Assembly: GCA_018436595.1 (NCBI GenBank)
Contig: JAHDLC010000029.1
Coordinates: 1 to 51,139, forward strand
Direction: 5' to 3'
From: Synergistaceae bacterium
GTDB taxonomy: Bacteria > Synergistota > Synergistia > Synergistales > Aminobacteriaceae
DNA: 51,139 nucleotides
A program made the position numbers and the translations under genes. Below the pieces are notes generated by a model. It saw nothing but the letters and a program-made list of their open reading frames with translations. It searched no databases and was not told where the DNA came from. This document shows positions 40,183 through 50,391 of the stretch, piece after piece. Position 1 is the first letter of the stretch. Each line of letters begins with the position of its first letter.

Positions 40183-41691
40183 CTACAAGCCTGGGTCGTT
40201 TTGCTCCCCGTCCGCCACACCGGGCCAGAGGGAGGGAATGGCCTGCTCGGGAAAATCTTCCAGCTTTTTCCCTGCGGCAGCCCGAAGAAAATTGTCCACC
40301 CACCAGAAAACATCCTGCCGGGCGATGGACTTCCTGAGAAACCGCATCCTTTCCTTTTTTTCCCTGTCATCCATGAAGAAGGCTCTCCTGACCGCCCCTG
40401 CAACGGCGTCCACGTCATAGGGGTTCACCAGGACCGCTCCACGGGCAAGCTGAAGGGCTGCTCCGGCAAACTCGCTGAGAATGAGGACTCCCTTTTCCCG
40501 CCCCTTGCAGGCGCAGTACTCCTTGCAGACAAGGTTCATTCCGTCCTTGAGGGACGTCACGAGGGCCATGTCCGCCGCCCGGTACATGGCCGCGAGTTCT
40601 TCCCTTGACACGGAGCCGTAATGCCAGTTCACCGGAACCCACCGGGTGGTGGAAAACTCTCCGTTGATCCGGCTGATGAGCAGCTCGATTTCCTCCTTGA
40701 GGGCCTGGTACTGCTCCACCGTCTCCCTGCTCGGGACCACGACCTGGTGCAGGGTAATCCGCTCGCGGAGTTCAGGATACAGTTCGAGGCACCTCCGGAA
40801 CCCCCTGAGCTTTTCCGGTATGCCCTTGGAATAGTCCAGCCTGTCGACGCCGAGGATGAACTTTTCCCCGAAGATCTCCTGCCGTATTTCTTTCGCCCTG
40901 GCCACTGCGTGCCTTGTTCCCCCCAGGGAGGAGTAGGCCTGGTAATCAATGCTGATAGGAAGACTCCCCAGGGAGAACGAGCGATCGCCGAGATGAACTT
41001 TCACGATGTGTCCCCGGCCGGAAACCCTGCATTCCGGGTGGAATACCTTCAGGCAGTCGAGGAAATTCTTCCTGTCTCTGCCGGTCTGGAAGCACACGAA
41101 GGAGTACCGGGTCATCTGGTCGAGGATTTCCCTGCGCCTGGGCATCTTCATGAACACATCGACGCTGGGGAAAGGAATGTGGAGAAAAAAGGACGTCCTG
41201 AGGCCCGGCTGCTTCTCCCGGAGCATGGCCCCCAGGGGGATGAGCTGGTAATCGTTCACCCATATAAAATCATCCTCCGAAGCATGCCTCAGGACAACCC
41301 GGGCGAACTTGGCGTTTGAGCGTACATAGCCGTCCCAGTAGCGGGGAGAAAAATCGCAGCGGCTCTGGAGATCGTGAAAAAGGGGCCACAGTACGGAGTT
41401 GGAATATCCGTGGTAGAAGTCATGCACATCGTCCTCCGTGAGAATGACCGGAAGAAAGCGGTACCCGCTCTCCTCCGACACCGGGCCCAGGATATCCCGA
41501 ATATCGGCAAGACGGGCGCCCGAACCCGTTCCGGGCCACCCTGCCCAGAAACCGCCCCTGTTCTTCAGCACAGGGTTCATGGCGCTGACCAGTCCCCCCG
41601 ACGCCGGGCACCCTTTCCACTTCCCCTCCTCACAGGAGAGGGTCACAGGAAGGCGGTTGGACACCACCAGCAGTCTTCCTTTTTGTTTCAA
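40183..41691 (-). CDS. otsA: Trehalose-6-phosphate synthase family glycosyltransferase
   Basis: This 502-residue GT20 enzyme joins an NDP-glucose to glucose-6-phosphate, giving trehalose-6-phosphate. GT20 glucosylglycerol-phosphate synthases are close relatives and cannot be excluded. Motifs: LLVVSNRLPVTLS at the N-terminus, WVNDYQLIPLGAMLR, VDRLDYSKGIPEKLRGF (about 282-298), HYGSVSREELAAMYRAADMA and the nucleotide-sugar site LKDGMNLVCKEY with LSEFAGAA. The start is TTG at 41689-41691 with GGAGG eight nt upstream; TTGA overlaps the otsB stop. The neighbouring phosphatase and TreT-like gene support a trehalose role. It ends the operon. Confidence 0.88.
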   Translation of the reverse strand: MKQKGRLLVVSNRLPVTLSCEEGKWKGCPASGGLVSAMNPVLKNRGGFWAGWPGTGSGARLADIRDILGPVSEESGYRFLPVILTEDDVHDFYHGYSNSVLWPLFHDLQSRCDFSPRYWDGYVRSNAKFARVVLRHASEDDFIWVNDYQLIPLGAMLREKQPGLRTSFFLHIPFPSVDVFMKMPRRREILDQMTRYSFVCFQTGRDRKNFLDCLKVFHPECRVSGRGHIVKVHLGDRSFSLGSLPISIDYQAYSSLGGTRHAVARAKEIRQEIFGEKFILGVDRLDYSKGIPEKLRGFRRCLELYPELRERITLHQVVVPSRETVEQYQALKEEIELLISRINGEFSTTRWVPVNWHYGSVSREELAAMYRAADMALVTSLKDGMNLVCKEYCACKGREKGVLILSEFAGAALQLARGAVLVNPYDVDAVAGAVRRAFFMDDREKKERMRFLRKSIARQDVFWWVDNFLRAAAGKKLEDFPEQAIPSLWPGVADGEQNDPGL

Positions 41692-42488
41692 GGCGTTCCC
41701 CTCCTTCCGGCTGTAAGGGCGCCAAGCCATCTCCGCAGAAATTCCGGCACTTCCTCCGGCAGGATTCTCACACCGGCTGCACTGACCGCCGGAAGAGCGG
41801 ACACGAGAATTCCTGCACCCCGGCCGTCAAGCACCCGGAATGCGTCCTCGTCCGTCACGTCATCCCCGAGGTAGCATACGGGGTCCCTGAAGCTTCGGGC
41901 CGCCAGTATACGTTTCATGGCCTCCCCCTTGGTGCATGAAGGAAGGCGGAACTCAACCCCCTGGTCGAAAGGAAGTCTTTCAAGGCCGGATTGCGAAGCC
42001 CTTTCAAGAAGTACCTCCTCGATCTTCCGGTACTGTTCAAGAACATCGGGCCGTTCTCTCCAGTGCAGGGCGGCGGAAACGGGCTTCCTTTCCACCGCGT
42101 CGGGAGGGAAGGCGCGGAACAGGTCCGGGAGCATAAGAAGGGCCCGCTCCTCCGCGGCCGAAAGGGGTACGGTGACCGTATCACCTCCGGGTGACCGGCG
42201 CTGCCATCCGTGACATCCCCATATTTCCGCCGGCACTCCAAGAAGGGAAGCAGCCTCCGACGCCTCTCTCCCGGTGAGAAGGACAAACTCTCCTCCCGCT
42301 TCCAAAATTCTTTGGAGAAGGTCCTTCGTTTCTTCGGAAGGAACGGCCTCGCTCCTTTCCCTTCGGAAAGGGGCGAGGGTACCGTCGTAATCGCTCACAA
42401 GCAGCGGGCTGACTCCGCCGAAGGAACCGAAGAATCCTTCCAGGTCCGAAAGCCCCAGGCCGGGATGCCCTATATCCACCGCTCCCAC
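41688..42488 (-). CDS. otsB: Trehalose-6-phosphate phosphatase
   Basis: This 266-residue HAD-superfamily phosphatase removes phosphate from trehalose-6-phosphate. HAD motifs are in order: the nucleophile DYDGTLAPF (Asp about 33, 35), FVLLTGREASEA, the Lys in TKGEAMKRIL, and GDDVTDEDAFRVL. A cap domain lies between. The start is GTG at 42486-42488 behind a purine-rich GGAGGAGAAGGAGA site and lies 19 nt inside the glycosyltransferase gene. Overlap with otsA by 4 nt makes the synthase and phosphatase a coupled pair. Confidence 0.92.
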   Translation of the reverse strand: MGAVDIGHPGLGLSDLEGFFGSFGGVSPLLVSDYDGTLAPFRRERSEAVPSEETKDLLQRILEAGGEFVLLTGREASEAASLLGVPAEIWGCHGWQRRSPGGDTVTVPLSAAEERALLMLPDLFRAFPPDAVERKPVSAALHWRERPDVLEQYRKIEEVLLERASQSGLERLPFDQGVEFRLPSCTKGEAMKRILAARSFRDPVCYLGDDVTDEDAFRVLDGRGAGILVSALPAVSAAGVRILPEEVPEFLRRWLGALTAGRRGTP

Positions 42489-43711
42489 TCTCCTTCTCCT
42501 CCGTCCAGGGTCACCAGAAGGGAAAGGTAGTTCCGAAGCTGCCCGGTAATCAGGAAATTCTCAAGAACGTACTGCCTGGCGTTCACGCCCATTCTCTCTC
42601 TTTTCCAGCGGTGGGTCAGGAGGTACCGGATCCTGATGGCGGCACCCTCGGGAGACCGCACGCGAAAACCGTTGAACCGGTTGATGACCTGCAGCCGTAT
42701 GCCCCCGACGTCACCGCCTATGACCGGTTTTCTTTTCCACATGCCCTCGCTCACCGTAAGGCCGAAGCCTTCCCTGGTGGATTTCTGCACAATCACGTCT
42801 GCACCGGACTGGAGGGCATTGATGGCCCGATGGGCATCCGGCGGAAGGACAAGGACGGAAATATCGGGATCCCCTGCGGCCGCCTCGCGGACTGCGGAAA
42901 GGACCTCTCCCGACTCGGGATCATCCGCCGCCCCGCCCCCTGCGAGAACAAGCCGGATATCTGCGTGTTCTCTCGCGATCCGGTAGCTCTCAATGACCCC
43001 AAGAGGGTCCTTGAACCGGTCGAAACGGGAAACCTGGAGGATGACAGGCTTGTCCCTGGGCACTCCAAGCTCCCGGTACGTTTTTTCCACTTCCGCCTTC
43101 GAGAGGGGGATGTTCTTCTCGCTGAGCGGATCAATGCTGGGCGTGATGAGAAACTGCGGATGAGACAGGGGCTGGGCGAAATCGGGCAGTGAGAAGATCG
43201 AGGCGTCATAGCCCTCCACCTGTTTTTTCACGAACCGCCACACCGACCGGTTCGGGGCGCTGACGTCGATATGGCACCGCCAGATCCACTTCCCCTTCCG
43301 TCCGGGCATCATCCCCAGCAGGGCCGCCGGCTGCGGGTCGTGGATGAAAACGTAATCCGCACCTTCCAGGCTCTCCTTCAGCTTTTCGGCGTTTCTTTCA
43401 TTCGTCGCCGTGTAGGAGGCAACCTGTCCCTCGGAAAGTCCTCCCGCCATCCCCTGCAGTGAGTTGTGCAGCGTTTTCGTGCAGGCGAAGAAGGGTTCGT
43501 CTCCCTCGATGACCTCCCAGGAGACGTCAAGGCCGAGCTCCCGGGAGAGGGGGACCATGGAAGAGAGAATTTCCGCCACTCCTCCTCCGGCCCTGGTGGA
43601 GTTTACGTGAACAATCCGCTTTCCCCGGAGACGCTCCGCTATGGCCAGAAGGCTGTCCATGGCATGGAAGCCGATAACTTCGCCGTACTGCTTCAGCATG
43701 TCGGACATCAT
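42470..43711 (-). CDS. treT: TreT-like trehalose synthase (GT4 glycosyltransferase)
   Basis: This 413-residue GT4 protein closely follows the TreT pattern: IVHVNSTRAGGGVAEILSSM (about 33-52), VIEGDEPFFACTKTLHNSLQG, YVFIHDPQPAALLG, RCHIDVSAPN, QVSRFDRFKDPLGVI and the acidic-retaining motif QKSTREGFGLTVSEGMWK. TreT makes trehalose in one reversible step from NDP-glucose and glucose, without a phosphate intermediate. Acceptor specificity is inferred from the family. The ATG at 43709-43711 (MMSDML) has GGAGG six nt upstream and overlaps the preceding gene (ATGA). Together with otsBA it gives this operon two trehalose routes. Confidence 0.85.
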   Translation of the reverse strand: MMSDMLKQYGEVIGFHAMDSLLAIAERLRGKRIVHVNSTRAGGGVAEILSSMVPLSRELGLDVSWEVIEGDEPFFACTKTLHNSLQGMAGGLSEGQVASYTATNERNAEKLKESLEGADYVFIHDPQPAALLGMMPGRKGKWIWRCHIDVSAPNRSVWRFVKKQVEGYDASIFSLPDFAQPLSHPQFLITPSIDPLSEKNIPLSKAEVEKTYRELGVPRDKPVILQVSRFDRFKDPLGVIESYRIAREHADIRLVLAGGGAADDPESGEVLSAVREAAAGDPDISVLVLPPDAHRAINALQSGADVIVQKSTREGFGLTVSEGMWKRKPVIGGDVGGIRLQVINRFNGFRVRSPEGAAIRIRYLLTHRWKRERMGVNARQYVLENFLITGQLRNYLSLLVTLDGGEGEWERWI

Positions 43712-44385
43712 TTCTTCCCTCCCTTCCGGAGTCCCTTTTCGAGAATGGAGACGATCTGTCCCTTCAGTTCACCGAGGGAAAAAAGGTACGAATCCACCCT
43801 GCCGAGGAGCCGCCTCACCTCCGCGGTACCCTCGCCGAACTGTTCAAGCCACAGGGAGAAGTCGTCCTTTCCCTCAGGAGACCGGCGGCGGCCGTCGAGA
43901 AAGTGATGAAAAAAGCTCTGCCGGCTCACCGTTTTGACCGCCACGGGAAAATCCTCCAGGGAGGAGGTAACCTTTCCCGTATCGAACATGAATTTTTTGC
44001 AGGCAATAAAATAGAACTCCCTGTCCGCCTTTTTCCAGCTCAGGAAATCTCCCTGGTCAAGTCGGGCCTCGAGAATGTCCTCAAGGATAGACCGTAGTTC
44101 CCCAAGATCCTTGCACTTCACGGGATTGACGGCGCTGAGGGCTTCAGCGAGTTCCGTGTCCCCGAGGCCTCCGTCGGCCCACGAGGCAAAATCATTGTTG
44201 AACTCCGACTCGGCGATGTGGGGGCGGAGCATTCTGCCCCAGAAATGATAATAGAGGGAACTTTCCGGAATTTCGGGAACGGCGGACCTGAGTTCTCTGA
44301 GCGTCTGTGCTCGAAAGCCCGTGCTCACGGGCAGAAGAGAGCATTCCATAAATCTGAAGGGGCCGTTGGCTCCTGTAGTGTTCAT
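43708..44385 (-). CDS. DUF5752-like protein with internal duplication
   Basis: This 225-residue soluble protein of unknown function resembles the DUF5752 family as I remember it. It consists of two related halves. Half 1 (about 10-110) contains FRFMECSLLPVSTG, SSLYYHFWGRML, NDFASWADGGLG and LGELRSILEDILEARL. Half 2 (about 127-222) contains FYFIACKKFMFDTG, QSFFHHFLDGRR, DDFSLWLEQFG and LGELKGQIVSILEKGL. The shared His pair and D-D/N-F-x-x-W motif could form a site. It is the first gene of the trehalose operon, with a textbook AAGGAGGT ribosome site seven nt before the ATG (44383-44385), and overlaps treT. A regulatory or accessory role in trehalose metabolism is inference. Confidence 0.7.
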   Translation of the reverse strand: MNTTGANGPFRFMECSLLPVSTGFRAQTLRELRSAVPEIPESSLYYHFWGRMLRPHIAESEFNNDFASWADGGLGDTELAEALSAVNPVKCKDLGELRSILEDILEARLDQGDFLSWKKADREFYFIACKKFMFDTGKVTSSLEDFPVAVKTVSRQSFFHHFLDGRRRSPEGKDDFSLWLEQFGEGTAEVRRLLGRVDSYLFSLGELKGQIVSILEKGLRKGGKK

Positions 44386-44456
44386 GGTTTCAACCTCCTT
44401 TGTGCAGTCGATGTATTCATCTCCCTTTCATTATGTAGCCTTATCGGCATTGAATA

Positions 44457-44486
44457 AGTATAACACATAATTTCTTTGTTCTACAA
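44457..44486 (-). promoter_or_regulatory. Predicted promoter of the trehalose operon
   Basis: On the minus strand there is a -10 TATACT (44457-44462, five of six) preceded after 18 bp by TTGTAG (44481-44486, three of six). The leader to the first ATG would be about 65 nt. The weak -35 leaves room for an activator or an alternative sigma factor, as expected for an osmotic-stress operon, but no operator is evident. Confidence 0.5.
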
Positions 44487-44574
44487 ATTAGCATTCCGCT
44501 CCATATATAAGCAGACGGAATTCCAGCAGTCCTGTACTTGAAATGGAGCAACCAGCCGTTTTAACACATCTGCA

Positions 44575-44617
44575 TGCATAGAAGAAGCGGAGGTAAAACC
44601 TCCGCTTCTTCTATGCA
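44575..44617. repeat. Perfect 19-bp inverted repeat, terminator-like, after the racemase gene
   Basis: Bases 44575-44593 are perfectly complementary to 44599-44617, with a 5-nt loop (TAAAA). It lies 40 nt beyond the stop of the enolase-superfamily gene. No T-run follows on either strand, so if it is a terminator or mRNA-stabilising stem it is not the classic kind. The 271-nt gap 44386-44656 otherwise holds only the trehalose-operon promoter. Confidence 0.85.
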
Positions 44618-47460: not shown

Positions 47461-48876
47461 CTACCACCTTCCCTTCAAAAACGCACTTTCGCCGAGATCG
47501 GCTACCGAATGCGGCACATGCTCTTTTCGAAGCGTCTGAACGCCTCTTTCACTCGTGATGAGCATTCCGCTCCCTCTATGCACTACGCCTCCGGACATCC
47601 TGATTGTTCCCCCGACAATGGCTGTCTCTACATGGCCGTTCGCCGGGTCAGCTATAATCACATCCCCGTCCGCACCGGGCGAGAGGTGTCCTTTTCCTGA
47701 AAGGCCGAACATGGCGGCAGGATTAAGGGACGTTTTGCGGACAAACTCCGGAAGCGTCAGGTACCCCATGTGAACAAAACGAATGCCGTTGGAAAGGATA
47801 ACGTTTCGGGGAATACCTCCTCCATCGCTGCTGATGGCAGGAATAACAAACCGTCCTGCTTCGTTTTTCGCCACCGCACAGGCCGACAGAGAGACCGGGC
47901 TGTTAACGGGAAATGAACATTTTGAATCGCGGAGGTGGTTCCGCCAATACACGAGACCGTCCTCAGGGGTAAGATACTGCAGTTCCCCTCCGATAAGGGC
48001 GTAGATTTTAGCATAACCATCCTGAATTGCCTTTTCTAGACCTTTTTTGTCCGGGGAATACTTATTCTTTTCAAGACATGTTCTTGTAACATGACTTGCA
48101 GGAAGGTCGTTTTCGTCCAGAGCCGCATCGGTACCGTTGTCGACGGAAAGGTATGATTCCGATAGTATATTTGGTGATTGTTCCAGTTTTTCTAGGGCTC
48201 TTTTAACTTCAGCCAGGGGCGGCTGCACCGTTCCCCGGCAATAGGAGTTTATGTGGGCTACATGGAGAGGAAGTCCTTCGGAAAGTTCCACCGCCTGTTC
48301 GAATCCTTCAATGTTGCTGCCCCTGGTAGTACTGCCGGCATGGATGGCAACGTAGCATTTCTGCCGAGCACATTCCCTTACGATACGAGAGATGGCATCA
48401 GGAGAAACAGGATAGTGCCCTCCGAGAATCTTTACCCCGAACGCCCCCTCGGAAAGTGCCTTTGCAACGGCTTCGGCAACTTCGGACGGGGAAGGATCGG
48501 GCCCTGAAAGGTTCTTTCCAGGGCGGAGGGCCTCAAGAACGAGCGCGTTCATACCGCACCCCTTTTCCCGAATCTCTTTTTTCACTGTCGCCACCGGTCC
48601 GGCAAAGCCGGCAGCCGTCGTGACGCCGGATTTCAGAAGCATGGCAAAGGCCGCGCCCTCAGCGTTCGGCCTCACAAGATGTGCATGAGAATCGACAATC
48701 CCGGGAAGAACCAGTTTTCCCCGTGCATCCAGCACCAGGGCAGCCTCTTCAATACCAATCCCCGGAGCCGATTCCTCGACACATCCATTACGGAGACCTA
48801 TGTCCCGAATTTCAAAGACTGCATTCAGAGGATCCACTACCATGCCGTTTCGTATAAGAATATCAAAATGCTTCAT
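47461..48876 (-). CDS. Amidohydrolase-superfamily enzyme A (D-aminoacylase/hydantoinase-like)
   Basis: This 471-residue cyclic-amidohydrolase-like protein has metal ligands in order: HxH in GIVDSHAHLVRP (His64, His66), a Lys in GAFGVKILGGHYP (Lys149, possibly carboxylated), His179 in IHAGSTTRGSNIEG, His208 in HVAHINSYCRG and Asp near 350 in ISSDGGGIPRN. The C-terminal GKGHLSPGADGDVIIADP is the usual beta-sandwich return. Substrate is unknown; an N-acyl or cyclic amide of an amino acid fits the family and neighbours. It is a tandem paralogue of the next gene upstream (48976-50391). The ATG at 48874-48876 lies 99 nt after that paralogue and 75 nt precede the carrier. Confidence 0.85.
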   Translation of the reverse strand: MKHFDILIRNGMVVDPLNAVFEIRDIGLRNGCVEESAPGIGIEEAALVLDARGKLVLPGIVDSHAHLVRPNAEGAAFAMLLKSGVTTAAGFAGPVATVKKEIREKGCGMNALVLEALRPGKNLSGPDPSPSEVAEAVAKALSEGAFGVKILGGHYPVSPDAISRIVRECARQKCYVAIHAGSTTRGSNIEGFEQAVELSEGLPLHVAHINSYCRGTVQPPLAEVKRALEKLEQSPNILSESYLSVDNGTDAALDENDLPASHVTRTCLEKNKYSPDKKGLEKAIQDGYAKIYALIGGELQYLTPEDGLVYWRNHLRDSKCSFPVNSPVSLSACAVAKNEAGRFVIPAISSDGGGIPRNVILSNGIRFVHMGYLTLPEFVRKTSLNPAAMFGLSGKGHLSPGADGDVIIADPANGHVETAIVGGTIRMSGGVVHRGSGMLITSERGVQTLRKEHVPHSVADLGESAFLKGRW

Positions 48877-48975: not shown

Positions 48976-50391
48976 TCAGCGTCCTTTCAGAAACATGCTT
49001 TTTTCGAGACATACCGTCTCATGGGGAATGCCTTCTGCCTTCAGACGAGAAGCCCCTCTTTCACCTGTCAGGAGAACCCCGCTTCCTCCGAAAACAATCC
49101 CGCGTGCCATACGAACTTTTCCGGCGGTAACGACCACTTCCGCTTCTCCGCTGGAGGGGTCGGCGATCGTTACATCGGCGTCAGCTCCCGATGTGAAGTG
49201 ACCTTTGCCGGCGAGACCGAACATTCTCGCCGGCAAAAGGGAAATCTTTTCTACCAGTTCTTTCAGGGTTAAATATCCCATCCTGGTCAGCATTATCCCG
49301 TTTTTGAGAATGATGTTGCGAGGGATGCCTCCACCGTCACTGCTTATAGCGGGGATGATGAAACGGCCACTCTCATCCTTTGAGACAGCGCACGCAGCCA
49401 AGGACGCTGGCATGTTGACAGGGAAAGAACATTTTGCCCCGCTTTTGTTCGCTTTCCAGTAATCCAGTCCCTCTGAAACCGTAAGGTAATCCATTTCATC
49501 TCCGACAAGGGCATAAATTTTGGCATAACCTGCCTTCAATGCTTCTTCCAGGCCTTTGCCGTCTTCAGGATACCCTCCCATCCGAAGGCATGCCCTCGTC
49601 ACATGGCTTTTGGGGAGTCCATCCTCGTCAAGGTCGGCGCTCGTGCTGTTGTTGACCGCAAGATGGGATTCGGAAATTATATTGGGTGATTCAAGGAGTT
49701 TCCTGAATGCTCTCGACAGCTCTGCGGGGATCGGCTCGACCATTCCTCTGCAGTACGCATTTATGTGTGCAAGATGGAGGGGAAGCCCCTGTGCAAGGTC
49801 AACGACCTGTTCCATTCCTTCTATGTTGCTGCCTTTTGTTGTGCTCCCTGCGTGGGCCCCTACGTAGCATTTTTGTTCAGAAGCCTCGTATATGATGGCT
49901 TCTATGCTTTCCGGCGTTAAAGGGTAGTGCCCTCCGAGAATTTTCACCCCGAAAGCTCCGTCATCAAGCGCTTTCCCGACTACCTGACGCACCTCAGTTT
50001 TTGATGGGCCCGGCGAGCTGAAACCGTTTCCGGAATGGAGAGCTTCCAGGACAAGGACATTAAGGCCGCTTCCTTTTTCCACAATCTCCTTCTTCACTGT
50101 CTGAACGGGACCGGCAAAACAGGCAGCTGTAGTCACCCCTGCTTTTAGAAGCATTCCGTAGGCTGCCCCTTCAGAACCAGGCCTCACAAGATGGGCGTGG
50201 GAGTCAACCACTCCGGGAATAACCAGCTTGCCCTGAGCGTCGATGATCTGATCTGATTTGCTCCTGTCCAGTTGCCGGGCACAATCATCAATACGCCCGT
50301 TTCTGACAGCGAGATCGCACTTCCCGAGAATGCCGTTCATGGGATCGACAACAGTACCGTTCAAGAAAAGAATGTCGTATCGTTTCCTCAT
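48976..50391 (-). CDS. Amidohydrolase-superfamily enzyme B (tandem paralogue)
   Basis: This 471-residue protein has the same length and layout as enzyme A, with well over half of the residues identical by eye. All ligands are kept: HxH (His65, His67), GAFGVKILGGHYP (Lys150), AHAGSTTKGSNIEG (His180), HLAHINAYCRG (His209) and ISSDGGGIPRN. Differences cluster in the N-terminal strand region, the segment at about 225-300 and the last 60 residues, which may alter substrate range. It is the first intact gene of the accessory operon. Its ATG at 50389-50391 lies 4 nt after the stop codon of a decayed ORF, whose last codons supply the GAGAGG ribosome site. Confidence 0.85.
   Translation of the reverse strand: MRKRYDILFLNGTVVDPMNGILGKCDLAVRNGRIDDCARQLDRSKSDQIIDAQGKLVIPGVVDSHAHLVRPGSEGAAYGMLLKAGVTTAACFAGPVQTVKKEIVEKGSGLNVLVLEALHSGNGFSSPGPSKTEVRQVVGKALDDGAFGVKILGGHYPLTPESIEAIIYEASEQKCYVGAHAGSTTKGSNIEGMEQVVDLAQGLPLHLAHINAYCRGMVEPIPAELSRAFRKLLESPNIISESHLAVNNSTSADLDEDGLPKSHVTRACLRMGGYPEDGKGLEEALKAGYAKIYALVGDEMDYLTVSEGLDYWKANKSGAKCSFPVNMPASLAACAVSKDESGRFIIPAISSDGGGIPRNIILKNGIMLTRMGYLTLKELVEKISLLPARMFGLAGKGHFTSGADADVTIADPSSGEAEVVVTAGKVRMARGIVFGGSGVLLTGERGASRLKAEGIPHETVCLEKSMFLKGR

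Follow-up and report, generated by a model that had tools for sequence, protein, structure and literature searches.

The window, a stretch of 51,139 nucleotides from a Synergistaceae bacterium (contig JAHDLC010000029.1, positions 1 to 51,139), carries a run of trehalose genes whose first member, at 43708-44385, encodes a protein of the DUF5752 family, known as OrfY in Thermoproteus tenax, and whose second is treT, the gene of a trehalose glycosyltransferring synthase. In the DUF5752 gene one small domain is encoded twice, the second copy joined head to tail to the first, and the gene forms with treT a near-invariant pair. With moderate confidence, we favour the reading that DUF5752/OrfY is a dedicated regulatory or stabilising partner of the TreT type that comes with it (the linked type), rather than a plain sugar sensor.

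Two copies of one module

An earlier reading of this stretch from its letters alone (the sequence-only reading) had delimited the open reading frame exactly, on what is the minus strand, and had proposed an internal duplication, to be checked by a profile comparison of the halves. Within the window sequence alone, residues 9-112 and 120-222 align with a Smith-Waterman score of 92, a value reached by 0 of 1000 shuffles (mean 24.3, maximum 52), and blastp of half against half gave an E value of 3.7e-10 with 30% identity over 105 columns. The profile comparison was significant as well: using a family alignment of 72 sequences (out of 108 of at least 200 amino acids (aa), with copies of 85% identity or more removed and that of L097 trimmed), hhalign matched the halves over 98 columns with a probability of 99.4, a score of 114 and an E value of 1.6e-21, while 60 column-shuffled controls stayed at or below a score of 21.9 and a probability of 13.2, and a control with a reversed half gave a probability of 2.4. 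Moreover, the match between halves had z > 5 in 71 of the 72 family members (100 shuffles each). All the residue pairs quoted for the two halves in the sequence-only reading are in the translation; the correct form of its His-x-F motif is (Tyr/Phe)-His-Phe.

The assignment to DUF5752, already suggested from the letters, was confirmed by a match to PF19027 with an E value of 5.2e-68 and 228.9 bits (cut-off 23) along profile positions 2-208 of 208, this one 208-position Pfam family covering both repeats. By phmmer the protein is related to the solved structure 4cso (E 2.2e-21), entered as 'The structure of OrfY from Thermoproteus tenax' and labelled by its depositors 'OrfY protein, transcription factor'; thus a structure is available for the family through this homologue. 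An AlphaFold2 model of the window protein (mean predicted local distance difference test score 90.2, predicted template modelling score (pTM) 0.83) shows in each half a single strand of 17 residues with helices after it, and it matches 4cso with a Foldseek E value of 2.6e-14 and a VIA Z of 22.6 (root-mean-square deviation 2.7, 208 residues). In the fold comparison only 4cso rose above Z 5, the next value being 4.3, which leaves further relations possible. The window protein and OrfY of T. tenax are homologous over their full length and share one fold, with two stretches of 4cso matching the single-module profile described below; they differ in being about 27% identical, and both the Arg-rich stretch of repeat 2 (residues 166-168) and the loop of repeat 1 (around residues 51-62, longer than in single-copy modules) are mostly not kept in OrfY. 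No match to the window protein was obtained in plasmid records.

DUF5752 is a tandem pair of a module of about 85 residues that also occurs singly. When the phylum of the Desulfobulbaceae locus L050 (the second phylum) was searched with PF19027, three half-profile matches turned up within long frames, which are single copies placed before a PPDK_N (ATP-grasp) domain or ending a protein with HAD plus a HerA-like ATPase; two of the segments, of 85 and 86 aa, when compared alone with PF19027, reached 27.1 and 30.3 bits (cut-off 23). A single-module profile, for which three single copies and the C-halves from three relatives were used, gave paired matches in nearly all DUF5752 genes and lone matches in large proteins. 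It matched 37 of 185 Synergistota genomes, the same 37 as PF19027; G143 apart, each had two matches, so the 185 yielded no single copies; the other phyla gave 71 of 198 genomes (second phylum), 16 of 149 (the phylum of a Gaiellales locus, Actinomycetota) and 63 of 149 (the phylum of an Acidobacteria locus), the last with 46 matches in frames of at least 900 aa, two of which (L182 and L183) were checked for architecture. Pfam found PPDK_N with a receiver domain in six of the single-module proteins, the receiver being below cut-off in two, PPDK_N alone in two further frames (L128, L179), and HAD in six others, all six with a HerA-like (DUF87) match that is below cut-off in two. A relative in a Parabacteroides plasmid record is named 'PEP/pyruvate-binding domain-containing protein'. 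Receiver-module-PPDK_N and HAD-HerA-like ATPase-module proteins thus resemble OrfY in carrying one copy of its module, and differ from it in that the copy is single, fused to an enzyme and has a shorter loop after the His. Through its copies in PPDK_N proteins, the role of the module can also be approached independently of OrfY.

A tree built from the repeats placed all 27 first halves, that of OrfY included, in one group (Shimodaira-Hasegawa-like approximate likelihood ratio test (SH-aLRT) 98), and 3 changes, the minimum, suffice for its four kinds of repeat. Since first halves group with minimal changes, one duplication preceding the spread of OrfY would be the simplest account; the tree has 107 columns only, the C-halves do not form a single clean group in it (2 changes), and support for the HAD singles is 56.

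The DUF5752-TreT pair and its TreT clade

Among the 185 Synergistota genomes, 36 of 37 DUF5752 matches lie directly upstream of TreT on the same strand, the exception being a fragment. The second phylum (198 genomes) gave 66 of 72; of the six exceptions, two are genes that are broken or partial, three are large frames with a single module, and one is a match below the cut-off; in public loci DUF5752 stands directly before TreT in 76 of 80, three exceptions being cut by a contig end and one a deletion. These three sets overlap in lineage. A neighbourhood survey was the other check that the sequence-only reading had set, and by these counts the neighbours are not random; the pair is tight enough to act on. 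Three copies are broken or incomplete: that of G143 is a fragment of 51 positions, that of G198 has three stops and lies close to the end of a contig, and that of G299 is partial. The 209-aa match in L131 falls below the PF19027 cut-off and looks like chance, and a 743-aa frame of G128 was rejected as a fusion.

In 102 of 105 locus rows, the projected TreT start lies at most 30 nucleotides from the stop of DUF5752; some rows are repeat fetches of one gene, and the frame-fused copies of G007 were left out. In the window the TGA stop of the DUF5752 gene shares bases with the ATG of treT, an ATGA overlap that supports the translational coupling claimed from the letters. The deletion locus, from Methylobacter (L105:6001-6549), has lost TreT and the end of DUF5752, and TreZ is directly next; a second TreT was sought in this genome (G192) and none was found. 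The other neighbours of the pair vary in kind and order (OtsAB, TreYZ, MalQ-TreY, GlgX), therefore the fixed unit is the DUF5752-TreT pair and not an operon. By best label, OtsA/B or TreY/Z are also present in 68 of the 80 loci; a script count of 70 includes cross-hits between related enzymes, and the labels rest on one representative each. The order DUF5752-TreT-OtsB-OtsA was seen in 18 loci and DUF5752-TreT-TreZ-TreY in 13. Across 14 named control genomes DUF5752 was present only in Sulfolobus acidocaldarius, and TreT there and in Thermotoga maritima. TreT of S. acidocaldarius is active in vivo, where any one pathway restores growth of a triple mutant, and its neighbouring gene goes unmentioned in the portions of that article available to us (PMC7688234).

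In G007 (L110:3161-5095; also L018 and L023), a single frame of 645 aa spans DUF5752 and TreT, passing through a run of nine G. The joint may reflect a frame-changing indel, slippage or an assembly error, and this only such case, with the run lying at the joint, was not counted as a natural fusion.

TreT also occurs without DUF5752: in Synergistota this holds for 11 of the 47 matches that exceed the cut-off, and in the second phylum for 28 of 94, a count that includes fragments. A first tree compared 71 linked TreTs with 10 of the 11 unlinked Synergistota ones (that of G053 was left out), and nine of these 10 fell into one group. For a second tree 33 linked TreTs were chosen by hand and set beside 33 unlinked ones, the same 10 plus 23 of the 28 of the second phylum; four fragments were left out, and the G240 stretch, which gave a linked TreT (L207), was kept ungrouped. 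All 33 linked TreTs lie in one clade with the T. uzoniensis TreT (SH-aLRT 96) and 27 of the 33 unlinked ones in another (97), the linked and unlinked labels requiring 2 changes compared with 22.3 in shuffles. Because the trees were rooted by choice on the P. horikoshii enzyme, they are silent on the kinship of that enzyme and the unlinked clade. L203 is on a long branch outside both clades.

The window TreT belongs to the T. uzoniensis clade. Its best solved relative is 6zj4 (417 bits), presumably the T. uzoniensis TreT, compared with 340 bits for 2x6q, which we take to be that of P. horikoshii, and it scores 369 bits against the NCBIfam model of the Thermococcales type, far under the cut-off of 775. 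Solved TreTs are named for both T. uzoniensis and P. horikoshii in the accessible part of one article (PMC11046441).

Distances between DUF5752 proteins and between their TreTs correlate with r 0.914 over 68 loci; in the 13 loci having all three proteins, r is 0.096 for DUF5752 and OtsA and 0.173 for TreT and OtsA. Such a correlation of sequence distances shows a joint history, and not binding. T. tenax TreT works only towards trehalose and prefers UDP-glucose, and the Thermococcus enzyme works both ways, according to the text available of PMC8615776. DUF5752 thus goes with the clade to which the T. uzoniensis enzyme belongs, and we infer that other members of this clade would behave like T. 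tenax TreT.

At L135:1814-5824 (minus strand) and L136:711-4766 (plus strand), the TreT glycosyltransferase forms the C-terminus of proteins of about 1340 aa, whose first ~900 residues gave no Pfam match at E 0.001. In G240 one such protein is found beside an ordinary DUF5752-TreT pair.

Role of the DUF5752 protein

The OrfY-type protein, with two copies of a small mobile alpha/beta module, looks like a covalent pseudo-dimer. As we picture it, coupled translation would yield it together with the TreT of the next gene, and it would bind this synthesis-type TreT and tune or stabilise it, both the contact and the direction of the effect being suppositions. Our guess is that a mainly trehalose-directed TreT may need a brake or gate against draining UDP-glucose, and that TreTs without DUF5752 manage without one. 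What the analysis shows is that the protein is duplicated and matches the fold of 4cso, and that its gene is paired almost invariably with treT, is linked to one side of the TreT tree, has evolved jointly with treT and was lost with it in one case. The findings on the gene pair speak for the partner role, which also has a precedent in T. tenax, where the synthase activity of TPSP requires a complex with a co-expressed glycosyltransferase (GT), as given in the part of PMC3634074 we had. The TPSP-GT complex is alike in that a trehalose-making enzyme is activated by a partner encoded beside it; it differs in that the partner is a glycosyltransferase, and it is cited as a works-like precedent only, with no claim of membership (PMC3634074).

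Several observations weigh against a partner of TreT. The linked clade also holds five unlinked TreTs (L114, L204, L205, L206 and L208): L114, from G041, stands on a long branch amid linked TreTs, with no DUF5752 in its locus or genome, L204 is also on a long branch, and of L205, L206 and L208 at least one (L208, the same gene as L135) belongs to a far larger protein. What was available of PMC8615776 presents T. tenax TreT as a working enzyme and leaves OrfY unmentioned; since this TreT works and that of T. uzoniensis was solved, catalysis as such does not require OrfY. A synthesis-only linked clade rests on one or two archaeal enzymes, and glycosyltransferases are generally reversible, the donor nucleotide setting the equilibrium, as stated in the available text of PMC6861944. 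Joint transfer alone can yield both the gene pairing and the correlated distances. Finally, the sole DUF5752-TreT frame fusion, that of L110, may owe its joint to an indel, and the prediction of its frame reached a pTM of 0.47 with no usable TreT, its four TreT rows being misaligned.

A broader version of the partner reading, which we put forward tentatively and regard as rather doubtful, takes the ~85-residue OrfY module as a general adaptor docking on carbohydrate and energy enzymes (TreT, PPDK_N-type ATP-grasp and HAD/HerA-like proteins); one duplication before OrfY spread through bacteria and archaea would have produced a free-standing pseudo-dimer making synthesis-type TreT controllable. 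If true, it would explain why the module goes with one TreT clade and not with the other.

That OrfY binds sugar, trehalose-6-phosphate or nucleoside diphosphate glucose at two similar sites, with or without contact to TreT, is in our opinion unlikely. The trehalose-gene setting speaks for it, OtsA/B or TreY/Z being so often nearby, and the sequence-only reading had taken the repeated His and D-F-x-x-W positions to suggest two similar binding sites, possibly for a sugar or sugar nucleotide. H47/H161, D65/D175, F66/F176 and W69/W179 are indeed conserved in both halves, and the His, Asp and Trp are invariant across the 72 relatives; in the model a helix begins with the Asp and includes the Trp (secondary structure only). 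However, when 16 single-copy modules were aligned to the module profile, from PPDK_N and HAD/HerA-like proteins without visible tie to trehalose, all 16 had the Trp, 14 the His and 13 the Phe, while the Asp was present in only 9 (5 others having a His there) and the Ser likewise in 9, which argues against the two sites as proposed and makes a trehalose-specific use of these residues improbable. Since the same residues are common to modules on very different enzymes, the simpler reading is that the repeated His and Trp more probably belong to the fold core. Better candidates for a TreT-specific job, judging from conservation, would be the residues conserved in one half only, C15, A26, E31, E61, A67, E81 and L109 in the first and F126, R166, R168 and L180 in the second; among these E61, E81, R166 and R168 could line a putative site.

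The depositors of 4cso labelled OrfY a transcription factor, which would here act on the trehalose operon. Its gene is the first of the operon, and the core TGTAGAACAA, which in the window lies in a short inverted repeat, overlaps the promoter block in five of six upstream regions. Against this, the family is acidic (median isoelectric point 5.06, with 1 of 72 above 7; 6.14 for the window protein), no DNA-binding family was matched in Pfam or NCBIfam, although the fold comparison leaves one possible, and a regulator gene would not usually come first, on the same strand and overlapping the next gene. Moreover, DUF5752 stays with TreT and not with the pathway, the other trehalose genes shuffling around the pair, and we consider the transcription factor quite improbable.

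A similarly small chance is given to OrfY as a folding or solubility chaperone of TreT with no regulatory role, an idea close to the partner reading. Coupled translation would suit co-translational assembly, and an mCherry fusion and inclusion bodies of trehalose transferase are reportedly the subject of published titles; the five unlinked TreTs of the linked clade, having no adjacent DUF5752, count against it. An enzyme, for instance one supplying or modifying the acceptor, is very improbable: invariant His, Asp and Trp would fit it, but both halves have these residues, as do accessory modules for the most part, and no catalytic family was matched in Pfam or NCBIfam.

The family and its structure are known already, and we presume the same of the conserved OrfY-TreT cluster; the cluster of the unidirectional TreT pathway was reportedly published in 2008 by Kouril. 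The window shares with that cluster the gene pair and a TreT of the T. uzoniensis clade, and differs from it in having OtsB and OtsA next in the run, which means that its operon holds two trehalose routes. What may be new here is the tandem-module reading, the occurrence of lone modules in two other architectures and the counts that tie DUF5752 to one side of the TreT tree, and the repeat may have been noticed by the authors of the structure. Searches for DUF5752 by name and for orfY with Thermoproteus tenax found no literature; among the matches listed in the literature search 4cso was not mentioned, and no title or abstract gave a function for OrfY, whose structure has been out since 2014 with none found in the literature searched. 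If OrfY is a control subunit of TreT, this would help to explain genomes that keep two or more trehalose routes, and TreT might become a better biocatalyst.

Operon layout and other features of the window

The gene order on the minus strand is DUF5752, treT, otsB, otsA, so that two routes to trehalose (TreT and OtsB-OtsA) are encoded in one gene run (40183-43711). The otsA-like protein scores 492 bits against TIGR02400, under the equivalog cut-off of 565, and the true start of its gene may lie downstream of the one given in Table 1.

Table 1. Coordinates of the trehalose genes, the repeats and the upstream elements in the window.
Feature	Position	Strand	Evidence
DUF5752/OrfY-family gene, first of the operon; 225 aa plus stop, ATG start, TGA stop	43708..44385	-	open reading frame; PF19027; phmmer match to 4cso
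Repeat 1, residues 9-112	44050..44361	-	hhalign; single-module profile match 44068-44361, E 2.3e-15
Repeat 2, residues 123-222	43720..44019	-	hhalign; single-module profile match 43735-44025, E 6.0e-14; conservation
ATGA stop/start overlap of DUF5752 with TreT	43708..43711	-	sequence
treT, trehalose glycosyltransferring synthase, 413 aa	42470..43711	-	TreT_GT1 E 1.8e-55; Glycos_transf_1
otsB-like trehalose-6-phosphate phosphatase, 266 aa	41688..42488	-	Trehalose_PPase E 7.9e-17; TIGR00685 80.7 bits (cut-off 68.05)
otsA-like trehalose-6-phosphate synthase, at most 515 aa	40183..41730	-	Glyco_transf_20 E 1.2e-132
Shine-Dalgarno AAAGGAGG of the DUF5752 gene	44394..44401	-	present in 6/6 aligned upstream regions, the window's included
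Promoter-like block: TATACT with upstream TG; core TGTAGAACAA at the -35 position	44457..44487	-	upstream-region alignment
Terminator-like hairpin, 20-pair stem, between the upstream enolase-superfamily gene and the trehalose operon	44575..44617	.	

In the six aligned upstream regions, that of the window included, TGTAGAACAA was found in five, TATACT in four and TATGCT in two. A promoter consensus scan lists no minus-strand site at 44457..44487, thus the promoter-like block is a reading of the alignment. A small inverted repeat, TTTGT-AGA-ACAAA, is seen at the -35 position (44475-44487); its core is the one shared by the five regions, and its arms are complete only in that of the window.

Apart from the trehalose genes, the window has two adjacent minus-strand open reading frames of 471 aa each (47461-48876 and 48976-50391), whose translations look by eye like near-paralogues and which may be of the amidohydrolase type.
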